A DNA stretch of 64,000 nucleotides, taken from positions 2,914,001 through 2,978,000 of the forward strand of contig NZ_CP149787.1 of the NCBI RefSeq assembly GCF_037914945.1, in the 5' to 3' direction. Shown in pieces: positions 21,742-36,429 of this stretch; the first letter of the stretch is position 1, and each line of letters opens with the position of its first letter. Below the pieces are notes generated by a model that did not search any database, was not told the origin of the DNA, and worked only from the letters and a program-made list of their open reading frames with translations. The position numbers and the translations under genes were made by a program. This stretch comes from Haloterrigena sp. KLK7. Its GTDB lineage: Archaea > Halobacteriota > Halobacteria > Halobacteriales > Natrialbaceae.

Positions 21742-21963
21742 AGTCGTACGACGGTGTTGTCCGGTCGGCGTTATAAAACGCACGTATTCGTACGGCCGCG
21801 GCAGCGACGCCCGGATCGGCCCGCAGTCGGCCGGTAGTGACGGCGAACTCGGGCGGCGACAGGAGCCGTTCACCGGCCGGAGAGCGGTGGGTCGGCCGGT
21901 TCCCGCTCACTGGGAGCGTAGTGGGTGTTTATTGAAGAGGGACTGTGGTATCCACACGCATTG

Positions 21964-22653
21964 ATGCGTCAGTACGAACTTCGGCTCTCGCCGCAGCGTG
22001 GGTGGTTCCATCCGTTCGAAAAGCGGATCGATCGCCGGGAAGGGGTCGACCGCGTGGCGATCCACCGGATCCGTCTCCGCCCCGACGGACTCGGGGTGAT
22101 GGTCTACGAACTCGCGGGGGAGTTCGAACGCGTCGAGGCGCTCGTCGACGAGGAGCTCGGCTCGCTCGGCTACTGGATCGAGGAGTTCGGTGACCGGATC
22201 TTCGTCTGCTCGCGGTTCGTCCCCAACGAGACCGTCACCGAACTCCTGCGGGTGACGCGGGACTTTCAGGTGTTCCTCGACCCGCCGCTGACGTACGTTC
22301 GCGACGGCGACCTCAAGGTGTCGCTGTTCGCGACCGAGGAGTCGTTTCAGCGGGCACGGTCGGTCGTGCCGGACGACGTCGACCTGTCCCTCGAGACGAA
22401 GCAGCCGTTCGAACCCGAGGAGAACGTCTTCCTCGCGTCGCTCACGCCGAAACAGCGCCGGCTGTTCGAGACGGCGATCGAGCTGGGCTACTACGGCTCG
22501 CCCCGAGAGACGACCTACGAGGAGATCGGTCGCGAGGTCGGCATCGCGGGCGGGACAGTCGGCGAGCATCTCCGGAAGATCGAGGCGAAACTCGTCGATC
22601 ACGTCGTCTCGGCCTCCGTCACGGAGTCGCCGAAGCGCCGACAGATCCAGTGA
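21964..22653 (+). CDS. Bat-type HTH transcriptional regulator (HTH_10 domain)
   Basis: A 229-residue haloarchaeal regulator. The first 150 residues form the N-domain seen in many bacterio-opsin-activator-like proteins. The C-terminal HTH_10 domain reads LTPKQRRLFETAIELGYYGSP, then TTYEEIGREVGIAGGTVGEHLRKIE (about 175-215). Targets are unknown. The ATG at 21964 is favoured over the GTG at 21925 because an AT-rich TTTATTG element lies about 30-37 bases before it, placing the GTG inside the promoter. Confidence 0.82.
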   Translation: MRQYELRLSPQRGWFHPFEKRIDRREGVDRVAIHRIRLRPDGLGVMVYELAGEFERVEALVDEELGSLGYWIEEFGDRIFVCSRFVPNETVTELLRVTRDFQVFLDPPLTYVRDGDLKVSLFATEESFQRARSVVPDDVDLSLETKQPFEPEENVFLASLTPKQRRLFETAIELGYYGSPRETTYEEIGREVGIAGGTVGEHLRKIEAKLVDHVVSASVTESPKRRQIQ

Positions 22654-22743
22654 GGCGGTTCCCGGCCACTCGGCGGGTCCCGCCGAGAATTGCGGCCGCC
22701 CCGCAGGAGCAAGAGTCACCCCGCTCGAGGCCGTTGGACCGGT

Positions 22744-23949
22744 ATGGACGACTCCGACAGCGACGGTGACGGCGCCGACGACCGCGGCGAGCGGGAACCA
22801 CACCGAATCGAGACCCGCTCGATCCACGCCGGACAGGAGCCCGATCCCGAAACGGGCGCACTGATGACGCCGATTCACGCCAACTCCACCTACAAACAGG
22901 ACGCGCCGGGCGACCACCGCGGCTACGAGTACTCCCGGACCGGGAACCCGACCCGGACGGACTTAGAGGAAAACCTCGCGAGCCTCGAGAACGCCGAGTA
23001 CGGCCGCGCCTTCGCCAGCGGGATGGCCTCGATCAACACCGTGCTCAACCTCCTCGAGGCCGGGGATCACGTCGTCACTGGCAACGACGTCTACGGCGGC
23101 ACCCACCGCATCTTCACGCAGGTGTACGAGGAGTACGACCTCGAGTTCTCGTTCGTCGACATGACCGACTTAGACGAGATCGAGGCGGCGTTCCGCGAGG
23201 AGACGGCGCTGCTGTGGCTCGAGACGCCGACTAATCCGCTCATGTCGATCGTCGACATCGCTGGCGCGGCCGAGATCGCCCACGAGCACGACGCGCTCTG
23301 TGCGATCGACAACACGTTCGCGACGCCGTACCTCCAGCGACCGCTCGACCTCGGCGCGGACATCGTCTCGCACTCCCTGACGAAGTATCTGGGCGGCCAC
23401 TCGGACGTCGTCGGCGGTGCGCTCCTGACGAACGACGAGGAACTGGACGAGCGACTGGGCTTCTACCAGAACTCCGTCGGCGCGACGCCGGGCCCCTTCG
23501 AGTGCTTCCTCGTCCTCCGGGGCACCAAGACCCTGCCCGTCCGCATGGACCGCCACTGCGAGAACGCCCGCGCCATCGCCGAGTGGCTCGACGACCACCC
23601 CGACGTCGACCGCGTCTACTACCCCGGCCTCGAGTCTCATCCCGGCCACGAGATCGCCGCCGAGCAGATGGACGACTTCGGCGGAATGTTGAGCTTCGAA
23701 CTCGACGCGAGCTTAGCGGAGACCGGCGAGGTCGTCTCGAGCACCGAGGTCTTCACGCTGGCCGAGAGCCTCGGCGGCGTCGAGAGCCTGATCGAACAGC
23801 CGGCGCCGATGACCCACGCCGCGATTCCCCGCGAGGAACGCGTCGAAGCGGGGCTCACTGACGGCCTCGTTCGCGTGAGCGTCGGCATCGAACACGTCGA
23901 CGACCTGATCGGCGACCTCGAGCGAGCGATCGAGACGGCGCTCCACTAG
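22744..23949 (+). CDS. Cystathionine gamma-synthase/lyase-type PLP enzyme
   Basis: A 401-residue trans-sulfuration enzyme of the Cys/Met-metabolism PLP family. After a 20-residue acidic tail it reads IETRSIHAGQEPDPETGALM, YEYSRTGNPTR, and the PLP lysine in SHSLTKYLGGHSDVVGG (about 205). The C-terminal SLGGVESLIEQPAPMTH completes the active site. The reaction joins or splits cystathionine in methionine or cysteine metabolism; synthase and lyase cannot be separated by eye. The start at 22744 excludes a basic, non-homologous upstream extension. Confidence 0.87.
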   Translation: MDDSDSDGDGADDRGEREPHRIETRSIHAGQEPDPETGALMTPIHANSTYKQDAPGDHRGYEYSRTGNPTRTDLEENLASLENAEYGRAFASGMASINTVLNLLEAGDHVVTGNDVYGGTHRIFTQVYEEYDLEFSFVDMTDLDEIEAAFREETALLWLETPTNPLMSIVDIAGAAEIAHEHDALCAIDNTFATPYLQRPLDLGADIVSHSLTKYLGGHSDVVGGALLTNDEELDERLGFYQNSVGATPGPFECFLVLRGTKTLPVRMDRHCENARAIAEWLDDHPDVDRVYYPGLESHPGHEIAAEQMDDFGGMLSFELDASLAETGEVVSSTEVFTLAESLGGVESLIEQPAPMTHAAIPREERVEAGLTDGLVRVSVGIEHVDDLIGDLERAIETALH

Positions 23950-23968: not shown

Positions 23969-24964
23969 TCACGCCGCGGACCGGCGCGCGAGTTGCGAAC
24001 GGAAGATCGGCACGAACCCCTCGAGATACGCCCGGGCGTCGACGGACTCGATCTCGCCGCAGTAGTCGGTGCCCCGCTCGTACTCGCGACGCCACCGTTC
24101 GACGAACGCGGTCTCGATGCCGGCGTCGCGGATCCGTTCGACGATCGGGTCGACGGTCGCGTCGGCCGGCGACGACCGGATCGCCCGGAGTTCGTCCGCC
24201 GACACGACGCCGGACTCGAGGGCTCGCGCCACGACGCCCGCGCTGTAGTCGCCCTCGGCGAGCTCCCGCTGCCAGGTGGCGATCCAGTTGCCGATCCGCG
24301 CCATCCGCTGGCCGCAGGCGACGAGGTCCCGAACGGCCGCGAGCTCGCTCGTCTCGAACGCCGACGCGTTCGCGAGGTCGATATCGGCGAACGGGAAGAG
24401 CATCATGTTGTAGACGTCGTACGTCCAGAGCTCGCGTTCGCCGGTGAGTCCGGGATACCGACCCAGCAGCGCCGAGTAGTCGACCGACTGAAGCGCCTGC
24501 CGCACGTCGAACCGGAACAGGGGCTCGAACTCGTCGGCCCGCGGGCTCTCCCGGTACAGCGACAGCAGCGCGTCCCAGAGCTCCTGCTGGAACCGCACGT
24601 ACTCGCCGTCGACGCCGTCGCGGGTCGGATCGGCGGGTCGCGAGTCGAACGGAACGAGCAGCAGTTCCTCGAGGGTGGCCCGGTCGCCGTGTCGCTCGGC
24701 GACGTCGTCGATGACGGTGATGAACATCGTCGCGAGCACCTTCGCGTCGCGGACGCGTCGGCCGCACTCGTCGTCGACACACGACAGGCGGAACTCGGGT
24801 TCGACGGCGTCGAACCATCGCCACGTCGAGCGATCTCGATCGGCGATCCGCTCGTCGTACGCGTCGACCAACGGCTGGACCGTCTCCGAGAGCGTCCGCG
24901 TCCGTGCGTCCGCGAACGGGTCCGTCTCGACCTCGAGCGTGGGAAACTGCGACTCGGCTGCCAT
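23969..24964 (-). CDS. Class I terpene synthase (cyclase) homologue
   Basis: A 331-residue, all-helical acidic protein. Two metal-binding signatures of class I terpene synthases are visible in the expected order and spacing. The first is the aspartate-rich DDVAE at residues 86-90, in the context MFITVIDDVAERHGD. The second is an NSE triad, NxxxTxxxE, with N226, T230 and E234 in RIGNWIATWQRELAEGD. The length fits single-domain microbial cyclases. The predicted reaction is ionisation of an isoprenyl diphosphate and cyclisation; substrate length is unknown. No prenyltransferase is adjacent. An isoprenoid synthase-fold protein with another role remains possible. The promoter carries a palindrome (24986-25005). 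Confidence 0.7.
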   Translation of the reverse strand: MAAESQFPTLEVETDPFADARTRTLSETVQPLVDAYDERIADRDRSTWRWFDAVEPEFRLSCVDDECGRRVRDAKVLATMFITVIDDVAERHGDRATLEELLLVPFDSRPADPTRDGVDGEYVRFQQELWDALLSLYRESPRADEFEPLFRFDVRQALQSVDYSALLGRYPGLTGERELWTYDVYNMMLFPFADIDLANASAFETSELAAVRDLVACGQRMARIGNWIATWQRELAEGDYSAGVVARALESGVVSADELRAIRSSPADATVDPIVERIRDAGIETAFVERWRREYERGTDYCGEIESVDARAYLEGFVPIFRSQLARRSAA

Positions 24965-25005: not shown

Positions 25006-25103
25006 TAATTGTTTAAATCATTGTATATTATATGCTGGGAAGACGAGCAGACGCGGGAAAACGGACGGACAGTCCTTTCGTACTGGGCGCGGACGACTCG
25101 AGT

Positions 25104-25796
25104 ATGTCGGCAGACGAACGCGACGCGGGCGTCCATACGCTCCCGATCACGGTCGAGTACGGTAGCCGAACGATCACGCTCACTCCGACGCTCGTCGAGA
25201 CCGAGCGCGGACTGGTCCTGATCGACGCCGGTCCGCAGGGCGCGCTCGAGGGCATCCGAACGCACCTCCGGACGCTCGGCTACGCCCTCGAGGACATCTG
25301 GCTCGTCGTCCTGACCCACCACGACGCCGATCACGCGGGGGGTGTCGACGACCTGCTCGAGGCCGTCGACGCGGTCGTCGCGACCCACCGCGAGGAGGCG
25401 CCGTACGTCACCGGCGAGCGCGACCCCATCAAGGGCGACGGCGACCGCTATCCCCCCGTCGACGTCGATCTGGAACTCGCCGGCGGCGTCCGGGTCCCGA
25501 CCCTCGCCGGCCCGATGGACGTCCTCGAGACGCCCGGCCACGCGCCCGGACACATCTCCTTGCACTTCCCGGAGGACGGTCTGCTGATCGCCGGGGACGC
25601 CCTCGTCGCGGACGACGATGATGGCTCGCTGTCGGGTCCGAAACCCGAGTTCACGCCCGACACGGATCGCGCCCTCGAGTCGGTCGGCGAACTGGCCGAC
25701 CGGGAAATCGACCACGTCGTCTGCTATCACGGCGGCTACGTCGACCGCGGGAGCGAGCGGATTCGAGAACTCTACGAGCGCGGACTCGAGGACTGA
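25104..25796 (+). CDS. Metallo-beta-lactamase fold hydrolase
   Basis: A 230-residue MBL-fold enzyme with the full metal set: THHDADHAGG (HxHxDH, about 74-83), TPGHAPGHIS (third His, about 152), GDALV aspartate (about 172) and CYHGG near the end. It resembles the glyoxalase II/YcbL-like or lactonase group, but substrate is not evident. The ATG at 25104 is preferred; an upstream in-frame ATG at 25032 lies within the AT-rich promoter. It is divergent from the terpene synthase gene. Confidence 0.82.
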   Translation: MSADERDAGVHTLPITVEYGSRTITLTPTLVETERGLVLIDAGPQGALEGIRTHLRTLGYALEDIWLVVLTHHDADHAGGVDDLLEAVDAVVATHREEAPYVTGERDPIKGDGDRYPPVDVDLELAGGVRVPTLAGPMDVLETPGHAPGHISLHFPEDGLLIAGDALVADDDDGSLSGPKPEFTPDTDRALESVGELADREIDHVVCYHGGYVDRGSERIRELYERGLED

Positions 25797-33473: not shown

Positions 33474-34037
33474 TCACTCGAACGACGTCGTATCGCCGCG
33501 CCGGTAGCGGTCGAGACGACGGTAGCCGTGGACGGTCGCGTTCTCGTCGAGTTCGATCTCGTAGCGACCGACGATGTCCTGCGTGTCGGGGACGGCCCGC
33601 CGCTCGACGACTTCGACGACCGCGCGCCAGCCGTCGTCGGTCGGCGAGATCTCGCTGACGGCGTCGAACTCCCGGCCGATGAGTTCGCCGGCGGTCGACT
33701 GGACGGTCCGGCGAACCGCGAGGACGCCCGCGATCTCGTCGTGATCGGTGTCGACGTCGGCGTCTACTTCCTCGGGATCGGTCTTCTCCTCGCCGGTCAT
33801 GTCGACCGCACCCAGTTCCTGGCTCTGGGCCTGCGACTGCCGTTCGTCGTCCTGTGCCGCTTCGTCCTGTTCGTCTTCGACTGCTTGACTGTCACTCACG
33901 GTTGGATCACTCTCGTCGTGCTGATAGCAGAAGCCGTCCTCCTGGGCCGGCCGCGAACAGCGCTCGCCGTCCTCGGTCAGCGCCCGACACTGGTCCTGCG
34001 CTTGCTCCGCTGATTGCTGGGTATCGGCTTCGGCCAT
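33474..34037 (-). CDS. gvpO: Gas vesicle protein GvpO with N-terminal zinc-knuckle-like extension
   Basis: A 187-residue protein. The C-terminal 90 residues are a normal GvpO domain (VRRTVQSTAGELIGREFDAVSEI, given in part, and DDGWRAVVEVVERRAVPDTQDI, then GRYEIELDE and YRRLDRYRRGD). GvpO is required for vesicle formation. The N-terminus carries an extra motif, CRALTEDGERCSRPAQEDGF, then CYQH: a C-x8-C-x9-C-x2-H pattern like small zinc-binding knuckles. A long acidic, Gln-rich linker joins the two. It is the last gene of the gvpA-gvpN-gvpO transcript. Confidence 0.88.
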   Translation of the reverse strand: MAEADTQQSAEQAQDQCRALTEDGERCSRPAQEDGFCYQHDESDPTVSDSQAVEDEQDEAAQDDERQSQAQSQELGAVDMTGEEKTDPEEVDADVDTDHDEIAGVLAVRRTVQSTAGELIGREFDAVSEISPTDDGWRAVVEVVERRAVPDTQDIVGRYEIELDENATVHGYRRLDRYRRGDTTSFE

Positions 34038-34118
34038 TGGCGTGTGCTGAACCTGTCGCGTGTATTCGTCCGTGTCTAGTCTAGGTACCGTGATTCGTTC
34101 TCAGCGGCCGGCGCCGAG

Positions 34119-35174
34119 TCAGACCGACTCGGCGATCTGCGTCCGGAGCTGCGAGACGTCCTCTGGCCCCTCGCCGGCGATCTTCGGCGCGAGGACGTCC
34201 ATGAAGACGTCGGTCAGCAACTCGTCGTCGAACTCGCCGACCTCGCCGTCGCCGTCTCCGTTTCGCTGGCCGTCGAAGACCGCCAGCCCCTTCGCGGCCG
34301 TGATCGCCGCCCGCGTGCCGACGACGAGGTCGAGTTCGTCCCGCAGCGCTCGCGTCTTCGCGACGATCGCCTCGACGTCTTCCTCGGAGAGATCGACGTG
34401 AGACTTGACGATCTCGCGCTCGGTCTCCTCGTCGTAGTAGTCGATGTGGACGCCGACGAAGCGGTCGAGCAGCGCGTCCTGCTGTCGGTGAACGCCGGCG
34501 TACTCGACGTCGTTCGAGGTGAAGATCGCCCGGAACTCGGGGTGGACGTCGATCGTCCGATCCTCGCCGCGCTTGCCCGGTCGCTCGAGGACGCCCTCCT
34601 CGAACACCGAGAGCAAGACGTTGTGCGCCGAGGGGTCGCTACGCGAGAACTCGTTGTAGACGAGCGTCGCGCCCTCCCGGACGGCCACCGAGAGCGGGTT
34701 GTCGACCCACCGTTCGCGGACGACCTCGGTCTTCTTGCTGACGCCGCCGACGAACTGGTCGGTCTCCTTGTACCGTTCTCCGCCGGCGTTCGCACCGACG
34801 AGCGCGGCCGTGTCGACGGACTCGTCGCCGTTGATCCACACGACCGGTCGGCCGCGCTCGGCGGCGGCCGACAGCGCAAGCGCCGTCTTCCCACAGCCCG
34901 TCGGGCCGATCAGGTGGACCGGCTTCTCCGCCTCGAGCCAGCCGGTGATCCGGCTTCGCAGCGAGGCGACGGCGTCGGTCTCGATGAACGGTTCGGGAGC
35001 GACGTCTTCGGGAGCCGAGAGGGGACCGTCCCCGCTCTGCGCGCTCGACGACGACGTCCCGTTCGACGACTGCCGGGCGAGTTTCTTCTTCGCACGCCGT
35101 CCCTGCTTCTCGGAGCGGTCGCTCGTAATCTTCCGACCTCTGACCTTGCGCTTGCGCGACGAATCGTCGGCCAT
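34119..35174 (-). CDS. gvpN: Gas vesicle protein GvpN (AAA+ ATPase)
   Basis: A 351-residue MoxR/NorQ-type AAA+ ATPase that promotes vesicle growth. After a basic 60-residue N-terminus (RKRKVRGRK, KQGRRAKKKLAR) comes Walker A GPTGCGKT at residues 90-97. Walker B is TLVYNEFSRS (about 170), and EFRAIFTSNDVEYAG (about 215) is the sensor region. The gene starts 6 bases after the gvpA stop. The basic extension is longer than I expect for haloarchaeal GvpN. Confidence 0.92.
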   Translation of the reverse strand: MADDSSRKRKVRGRKITSDRSEKQGRRAKKKLARQSSNGTSSSSAQSGDGPLSAPEDVAPEPFIETDAVASLRSRITGWLEAEKPVHLIGPTGCGKTALALSAAAERGRPVVWINGDESVDTAALVGANAGGERYKETDQFVGGVSKKTEVVRERWVDNPLSVAVREGATLVYNEFSRSDPSAHNVLLSVFEEGVLERPGKRGEDRTIDVHPEFRAIFTSNDVEYAGVHRQQDALLDRFVGVHIDYYDEETEREIVKSHVDLSEEDVEAIVAKTRALRDELDLVVGTRAAITAAKGLAVFDGQRNGDGDGEVGEFDDELLTDVFMDVLAPKIAGEGPEDVSQLRTQIAESV

Positions 35175-35180
35175 GGAGGG

Positions 35181-35471
35181 TTATTGGGTGGCGGATTCGG
35201 GTGACGATTCCGGACGCGGTTCGACCTCGAGCTCCTCCAGCTCCTCGAGGTCGCCCTCCGCCGTCGCTTGCTCAATTTTCGCGATCTCCTCCGCGTAGTG
35301 CAGGAAGGTGTCCACGGAGGCGACGACGACGCGGGCCTCGATCGTCAGGAGTTCGATCCCAACGACCGAGATCCGCGCCCAGACGTCGATGACGACGCCC
35401 TTGTCGAGGATGCGATCCAGTACCTCCGCGAGACTCGAGGAGTCGGGTCTCCGACCTGATGATGCTGCCAT
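35181..35471 (-). CDS. gvpA: Gas vesicle structural protein GvpA
   Basis: This 96-residue protein is the main wall protein. Residues 11-68 match GvpA almost exactly: [40 protein letters not shown] and [13 protein letters not shown]. The N-terminus has an extra SSGRRP and the C-terminus an acidic 25-residue tail ([17 protein letters not shown]), making it about 20 residues longer than Halobacterium GvpA. The ATG read from 35471 follows a TATA-like TTACGAA (minus strand, 35494-35500) at the right distance. Confidence 0.94.
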
Positions 35472-35650
35472 ACGGACGATGGTACAGCACGGGTTCGTAA
35501 CACGACAAGGGCTGCGTCTGCAAGCCGCCGTCTCCGGATCGATCGCTCGAGCGACCGATCGGTGCCGTCGCCGCGGGCTGCGATTGCAAGCACCACGATG
35601 ACCCATCGCGGCGGTGAATCTCACGTGACGAGTTCCTCGAGTACCCGCAG
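35472..35650. promoter_or_regulatory. gvpA/gvpF divergent control region with paired 17-mers and a central palindrome
   Basis: Two 17-base direct repeats, GGGCTGCGTCTGCAAGC (35509-35525) and GGGCTGCGATTGCAAGC (35575-35591), differ at two bases. Almost midway between them is a near-perfect 24-base palindrome (35537-35560; arms of 12 with one mismatch; core TCGCTCGAGCGA). The first repeat sits just upstream of the gvpA TATA-like element, where activator sites lie in other haloarchaeal gvp loci. The sequence is unlike the GvpE site I know, and gvpE is absent. Confidence 0.5.
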
Positions 35651-35809
35651 GTGAGGGCCGGCGAGGCGGATTCCGGCGGCGCTCCCCGGGTAGTCGACCC
35701 CGTTCCCATGATATCCCGATCGATCCGTCTCGAGGCCGTGGACGAATCGCGCCCGCGCTTGCGGGCACGAGCAGCGCCGCCGTTCGACGCCGGGGTGATC
35801 GACCGATGA
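35651..35809 (+). CDS. Candidate small ORF coupled to gvpF
   Basis: An open frame whose stop overlaps the gvpF start by ATGA at 35806-35809. It may begin with GTG at 35651 (52 residues) or ATG at 35708 (33 residues: a basic, Arg-rich peptide with [19 protein letters not shown]). There is no homologous family I recognise. The evidence is the overlap and the need for an upstream mRNA leader, as gvpF has a strong Shine-Dalgarno site (GGTGATC, 35794-35800) rather than a leaderless start. It could be a chance frame. Confidence 0.3.
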
Positions 35810-36429
35810 CCCACCGATACGTCTACGGCGTGATGAACGACGACCCCGTCGAGTTCGAGACCGACGCGGTCGGCGGCGCCGACCGCGTCTACACGGTCTC
35901 GCACCGACGGCTCAACGCCGTCGTCTCCGACATCGACACGACCGATCCGGAGGAGACCGACGAGGACGCCCAGCGACACGACGACGTCCTCCGGGAGATC
36001 ATGGAGCGCGACGGCGGCCGCACCATCGTCCCGATGCAGTTCGGGATGGCCTTCGAGAACGATCGGGCACTGAAGAACGTCCTTCGAGGCGCGAGACCGG
36101 CGTTCCGCCGCGCGATCAACGACATCGAGGGCCGGGAGGAACTCGGCCTCAAGGTCGTCCGCGAGGAGGACGCCGACGTCGATACCGACGCGCTCGAAGA
36201 AGCCGTCGCGGACGCGCTCGAGCCGATCGCCGCCCAATCGGTCCCCAACGACCTGTTCAGCGATCGGCTCGTGCTCAACCGGTCGTACCTCGTCGACCGC
36301 GACGAGCGCGAGCGGTTCGACGAGGCGGTGGCCGACCTCGAGGCGGAGTACGACGACCTCATGTTCCGCTACACGGGGCCGTTCGCGCCGTACAGCTTCG
36401 TCGACGTCAAGATCGGAGCCCAACAGTAA
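35806..36429 (+). CDS. gvpF: Gas vesicle protein GvpF
   Basis: A 207-residue GvpF/GvpL family protein. It opens [16 protein letters not shown], then [20 protein letters not shown] and [20 protein letters not shown] (typical of the N-domain), and ends [20 protein letters not shown], the conserved C-terminal signature. GvpF is a minor essential vesicle component that binds GvpA. First recognised gene of the rightward operon; the ATG at 35806 follows a good Shine-Dalgarno site. Confidence 0.93.

Follow-up and report, generated by a model that had tools for sequence, protein, structure and literature searches.

A 64,000-nucleotide stretch of the genome of Haloterrigena sp. KLK7 (the window) carries a gene that very probably encodes a soluble class I terpene synthase belonging to an archaeal family. 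We have strong support for placing the window protein in the class I terpene synthase superfamily, and activity is likely, though there are no activity data. The fold of a predicted model, the metal-binding motifs, their conservation, the spread of the family and its gene linkage were established here, while catalysis, substrate, product and regulation are inferred. Terpene cyclases open the routes to the largest class of natural products. Isoprenoid use in archaea is discussed mainly in terms of lipids, carotenoids and quinones. An earlier note on this DNA, made from the sequence alone, had remarked that class I cyclases are little described in archaea. This fits the open-access literature, in which our searches turned up no account of a class I terpene synthase from archaea; an earlier report elsewhere, in subscription papers or preprints outside that scope, is not excluded. 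Clusters labelled 'terpene' by antiSMASH have been reported in Halobacteria (PMC8600319, PMC10105419), and these resemble the present case in that they hold terpenoid genes in the same organism class. They differ in that, in the accessible portions of the two reports, no class I synthase is named in them. One of the reports also states that halocin and bacterioruberin are the only secondary metabolites to which an archaeal cluster had been confidently linked (PMC10105419).

The synthase is encoded on the minus strand, which the earlier note had left unspecified, by an open reading frame with an ATG start, 331 amino acids and a stop. The gene and its two motifs are located as follows.

23969..24964, minus strand: class I terpene synthase homologue, 331 aa (open reading frame, PF19086 at 19.7 bits, family and motif conservation, fold, purifying selection)
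24695..24709, minus strand: metal motif 1, DDVAE, residues 86-90 ([DN]Dxx[DE] in 90/90 homologues)
24263..24298, minus strand: metal motif 2 with flanking arginines, R223 to E234, RxxNWxxTWxRE (conserved across 90 homologues)

Because dN/dS between the window gene and five close relatives is 0.21-0.28 (NG86), the reading frame is a real gene under purifying selection. Translation of the frame agrees in every particular with the earlier note, which had described a 331-residue protein with DDVAE at 86-90, the triad N226, T230 and E234, and about 140 residues between the two motifs. The second motif reads NWIATWQRE at residues 226-234, with all three triad residues exact, and the distance from D86 to N226 is 140 residues. 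To gauge chance, we counted shuffles of the window protein in which [DN]Dxx[DE] was followed 130-150 residues on by Nxxx[ST]xxxE. Such a pair arose in 122 of 200,000 shuffles, about 6 in 10,000, so the motifs in a single sequence are merely suggestive and it is their conservation that decides.

Both metal motifs are present in each of 90 distinct haloarchaeal homologues, a count from which the degenerate copies L123-L128 were excluded; no homologue among the 90 has lost a motif, and the loss of motifs in close homologues is what the earlier note would have taken as a refutation. Fourteen residues are invariant: R43, W48, W50, V63, D87, D196, R212, R223, N226, W227, W231, R233, E234 and D239. 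Position 230 is threonine or serine throughout, and the second motif of the family reads RxxNWxx(T/S)WxRExxEGD.

Profile searches gave a divided answer. The comparison with the Pfam terpene synthase families that the earlier note had proposed succeeds for relatives of the window protein but not for the protein itself. The divergent members L080 (32.6 bits) and L111 (26.9 bits) exceed the 23.7-bit cut-off of PF19086 (Terpene synthase family 2, C-terminal metal binding), and 57 of 70 family members match this model at E<=1, the best at 2.3e-8. The window protein itself reaches 19.7 bits with PF19086, a narrow miss, and 12.9 bits against a second Pfam terpene synthase model with a cut-off of 26.3. 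Since it lies below both cut-offs, the family may escape routine mining. No NCBIfam model matches the window protein or five relatives, and phmmer against PDB sequences returned weak matches only. When a profile of the family was compared with PDB proteins, the best match was Sat1646 (E 0.037), which is weak alone. In that alignment the family's motif 2, RiGNWvtTWeRElaEGDyss, is set against RLSNDLASYERDIRSGDLNA, and the sequence of Sat1646 at the motif 2 position is RLSNDLASYERDIRSGD. A profile comparison with bacterial synthases from plasmids was likewise weak (probability 2%, P 0.023) and included only two sequences, too few to be informative.

The AlphaFold2 model of the window protein, built on 70 family sequences, is all-helical with a mean pLDDT of 93.8 and a pTM of 0.92. 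Motif 1 lies at the end of the helix spanning residues 65-91 and motif 2 lies within the helix spanning 205-236; helices D and H of class I enzymes are placed in this way. These placements bear only indirectly on a further refuting condition of the earlier note, motifs that do not face each other in the pocket. All 50 matches listed by VIA-align are class I terpene synthases of plant, bacterial or fungal origin, with Z scores of 20.0-21.9 (21.9 for bornyl diphosphate synthase and taxadiene synthase, 21.1 for LrdC, 21.0 for Sat1646) and rmsd values of 2.8-3.6 Å over about 250-293 residues. These scores far exceed the level that the tool states for helical bundles lacking a clear match. Neither prenyl diphosphate synthases nor squalene/phytoene synthases are among the VIA-align matches listed, an absence that does not by itself exclude them. 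The best Foldseek match in the PDB was a Streptomyces type I diterpene synthase (E 3.7e-5), and the Foldseek matches also included PcIDS1, FPP synthases and an archaeal GGPP synthase (5jfq). With a member of the deepest branch (L105) as query, the model had a pLDDT of 91.8; its VIA-align Z scores reached 21.5, and selinadiene and T-muurolol synthases headed the matches. In the predicted models, then, both the window protein and the deepest branch meet the expectation of an all-helical isoprenoid synthase fold, the absence of which would also have told against the earlier note. Its identification of the protein as a class I terpene synthase homologue is thus supported by the predicted fold, the motifs and their conservation in 90/90 sequences.

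Solved structures share only about 10-14% identity with the window protein. Similar to the PF19086 synthases (Sat1646, LrdC, epi-isozizaene and T-muurolol synthases), the archaeal protein has a predicted all-alpha fold, a motif spacing of 140 residues and a size near 330 aa, with DDxxE on one helix and NxxxTxxxRE followed by GD on another. In contrast to these enzymes, every archaeal member has NW in place of ND after the metal-binding Asn; W227, W231, R43, W48 and W50 are invariant in the archaeal family; and no conserved Arg is found around the place where the sensor usually stands. In bacterial synthases the Asn of the NSE motif is preceded, by about 46 residues, by a pyrophosphate-sensor Arg, and an RY pair lies near the C-terminus, the sensor Arg being a mark of bacterial-type enzymes and not of class I synthases overall. 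Alignment columns 172-191 of the archaeal family hold no conserved Arg (at best R in 28/90, at 181), and a conserved RY pair near the C-terminus was not found among the 90 homologues. The NW change together with the absence of the bacterial sensor Arg and RY pair indicates that the archaeal family, on its aligned residues, is a variant class I family and not a standard bacterial-type enzyme.

Bornyl diphosphate synthase and 5-epi-aristolochene synthase fall within the Z range of 20.0-21.9, tied with the best bacterial entries, although the archaeal protein, unlike the plant synthases, consists of the alpha domain only and is about 10% identical to them. Plant synthases have the motif RxxNDxxTxxxE, in which an Arg precedes the Asn/Asp of motif 2 by three residues, and R223 of the window protein likewise precedes N226 by three. 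Four arginines, R43, R212, R223 and R233, are invariant in the family. Of these, R212, R223 and R233 lie on the motif 2 helix and are candidate diphosphate-binding residues, a role that is inferred. Three basic residues typically coordinate the diphosphate in class I enzymes (PMC10563020), and our definition of the aspartate-rich DDxxD/E motif was taken from the same source (PMC10563020).

Homologues occur in 87 of 292 sampled Halobacteria genomes (about 30%) and in 35 of 77 genera; most are full length, with identity down to about 28%. Most Halobacteria genomes lack the synthase, among them one from this genus (G254), and it is an accessory gene in this class. One copy is present in the window genome, and two or three are present in some others (G262, in tandem, G121 and G198). 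Within single haloarchaeal families, the tree contains several deep clades (root undetermined), and this pattern fits duplication and transfer of an accessory family. A tblastn search of plasmid records returned haloarchaeal matches only, so that search, limited to plasmids, did not reveal the nearest bacterial relative. All six plasmid-borne homologues are labelled 'hypothetical protein' in the PLSDB gene table. Outside Halobacteria, intact relatives were found in five genomes of the same phylum (L118-L122), two of which, L118 and L119, have low GC (0.34). Other non-halobacterial genomes of the phylum hold broken or divergent copies (L123-L128), some without motifs, and the state of these copies implies that the gene is there being lost or changed in role.

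Around one synthase paralogue we identified a gene cluster (G202:C1, about 544-560 kb; L129:10963-16001 and L089:208-13221). It contains two P450s, two FAD_binding_3 proteins (FAD oxygenases), a UbiA prenyltransferase, a SnoaL-like protein, two methyltransferases, an alpha/beta hydrolase and a class III aminotransferase, and looks like a terpenoid or meroterpenoid cluster. At its edges are direct copies of succinate dehydrogenase membrane-subunit genes (L129:9832-10622 and L089:13764-14554, about 85% DNA identity); the arrangement looks like an insertion with duplication. Across the family, P450 genes lie within about 3 kb of 4 of the 87 loci, compared with 0.34 expected (P about 4e-4), two of the four being close relatives. 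In the deepest branch, L105 and L110 adjoin a TFIIB gene, a P450 and an unidentified family of 175-209 aa proteins without a Pfam match.

The family is also linked to regulators. A BAT-type regulator (PAS, GAF, BAT, HTH_10) lies within 1.3 kb of the synthase at 23 of 87 loci, either divergent to it or, in one clade, in the order BAT>HalOD1>synthase. Genomes encode roughly 3-44 BAT proteins, and adjacency by chance is expected at about one locus. Nearly all of the 23 linked loci belong to one clade of the tree, indicating that the linkage arose once or a few times and was then inherited, and did not arise 23 times over. A BAT regulator beside an isoprenoid enzyme has a precedent in Halobacterium, where the bop region, with its phytoene synthase gene, is under the control of Bat. 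At one locus (L074:6363-7877, G075:C2), a receiver, a HalX domain and the synthase are joined in one 505-aa frame (PF00072, 8.3e-17; PF08663, 8.1e-7). A PAS histidine kinase is encoded three genes away, and terpene synthesis at this locus is possibly controlled by phosphorylation. Its neighbours include an FAD oxygenase and a hydrolase related to those of the G202 cluster (50% and 48% identity). This is the only fusion that stands up: the N-terminal extensions in L026, L033, L035, L066 and L068 contain no extra Pfam domain and are probably over-extended starts. What the paralogues in G202 and L074 suggest about chemistry applies to the family and not to the window protein specifically, because they are only remotely related to the window gene.

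Several other readings of the protein were weighed against a terpene cyclase. The fold and motifs demand ionisation only, and would be satisfied by a class I enzyme that does not cyclise, releasing a linear alcohol or alkene or coupling prenyl units in some unusual manner. Altered chemistry could be the meaning of the NW change and of the lack of a sensor Arg, and prenyl diphosphate synthases such as PcIDS1 are among the Foldseek matches. We nevertheless consider a non-cyclising enzyme unlikely, since motif 2 is the N-T-E triad of terpene cyclases and not the second DDxxD of elongating synthases, the 50 VIA-align matches listed are all terpene synthases, and the UbiA/P450/FAD cluster of the paralogue suggests tailoring of a scaffold. 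A prenyl chain-elongating or squalene/phytoene synthase mis-read as a cyclase would share the superfold, and both 5jfq and FPP synthases appear among the Foldseek matches. However, neither PF00348 nor PF00494 matches the window protein at E<=10, its second motif is NxxxTxxxE with no second DDxxD, and such enzymes are missing from the VIA-align matches listed. Additionally, the two PF00348 genes of the genome sit elsewhere, consistent with the earlier note's statement that no prenyl diphosphate synthase is adjacent. This reading is disfavoured and can scarcely be maintained.

The receiver-HalX fusion in L074, the BAT-type regulators within 1.3 kb at 23/87 loci and the HalOD1 neighbours could also be accommodated by a catalytically retired, sensory domain that binds prenyl diphosphates and signals isoprenoid status. 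Across 90 sequences neither the metal ligands nor the candidate diphosphate arginines vary, a strictness needless for a non-catalytic sensor, and nearly all members are stand-alone proteins without signalling domains; we judge a sensory role very improbable. For the preferred reading, an active terpene synthase, Mg2+ would be bound by D86/D87/E90 and N226/T230/E234, and the diphosphate would be gripped by R223, R233 and probably R212. A prenyl diphosphate (C10-C25) drawn from the normal lipid and carotenoid pool would then be ionised, and the pocket would guide the cation to a cyclic, possibly linear, terpene. On this reading the family diversified across Halobacteria and in parts of the rest of the phylum, serving accessory, specialised metabolism; sensor-type regulators probably control it in several lineages. 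A bolder proposal is that this is an archaeal family of its own, with a changed signature (RxxNWxxTWxRE, no bacterial-type sensor Arg), which makes undescribed cyclic terpenoids on sensor demand through BAT/HalOD1 and, in the receiver-HalX fusion, under phosphorylation control. We advance it tentatively, as a real possibility that falls somewhat short of probable.

With a large archaeal branch annotated as hypothetical in the plasmid records consulted, many salt-loving archaea may make cyclic terpenoids that have not been sought, and since the family occurs in about 30% of the haloarchaeal genomes sampled, terpenoid chemistry in archaea can be tested directly. The altered motif 2 is a natural experiment that can show which elements of the class I active site are indispensable. 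Should the sensor linkage and receiver fusion prove functional, they would represent an uncommon form of control for a terpene synthase.

Tailoring genes were not found adjoining the synthase in the window, where the neighbouring genes are as follows.

25032..25796, plus strand: metallo-beta-lactamase-fold hydrolase, divergent, 68 nt from the synthase (PF00753)
22690..23949, plus strand: Cys/Met metabolism PLP-dependent enzyme, convergent neighbour (PF01053)
21925..22653, plus strand: HTH_10 (Bat-type DNA-binding domain) regulator, two genes away (PF24278, PF04967)

A hydrolase of the metallo-beta-lactamase fold adjoins the synthase in 25 loci, 21 divergent and 4 upstream and co-directional. 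This linkage suggests a functional tie, which is inferred and is not proof. The PLP-dependent enzyme is probably unrelated in function to the synthase. A palindrome in the 68-nt divergent promoter, GAGTCAA-N6-TTGACTC, was considered as an operator and rejected, being absent from the closest relatives. Elsewhere in the window, at 33474-36429, lie gas vesicle genes encoding GvpO, an AAA protein (likely GvpN), a GvpA-type protein and GvpL/GvpF.
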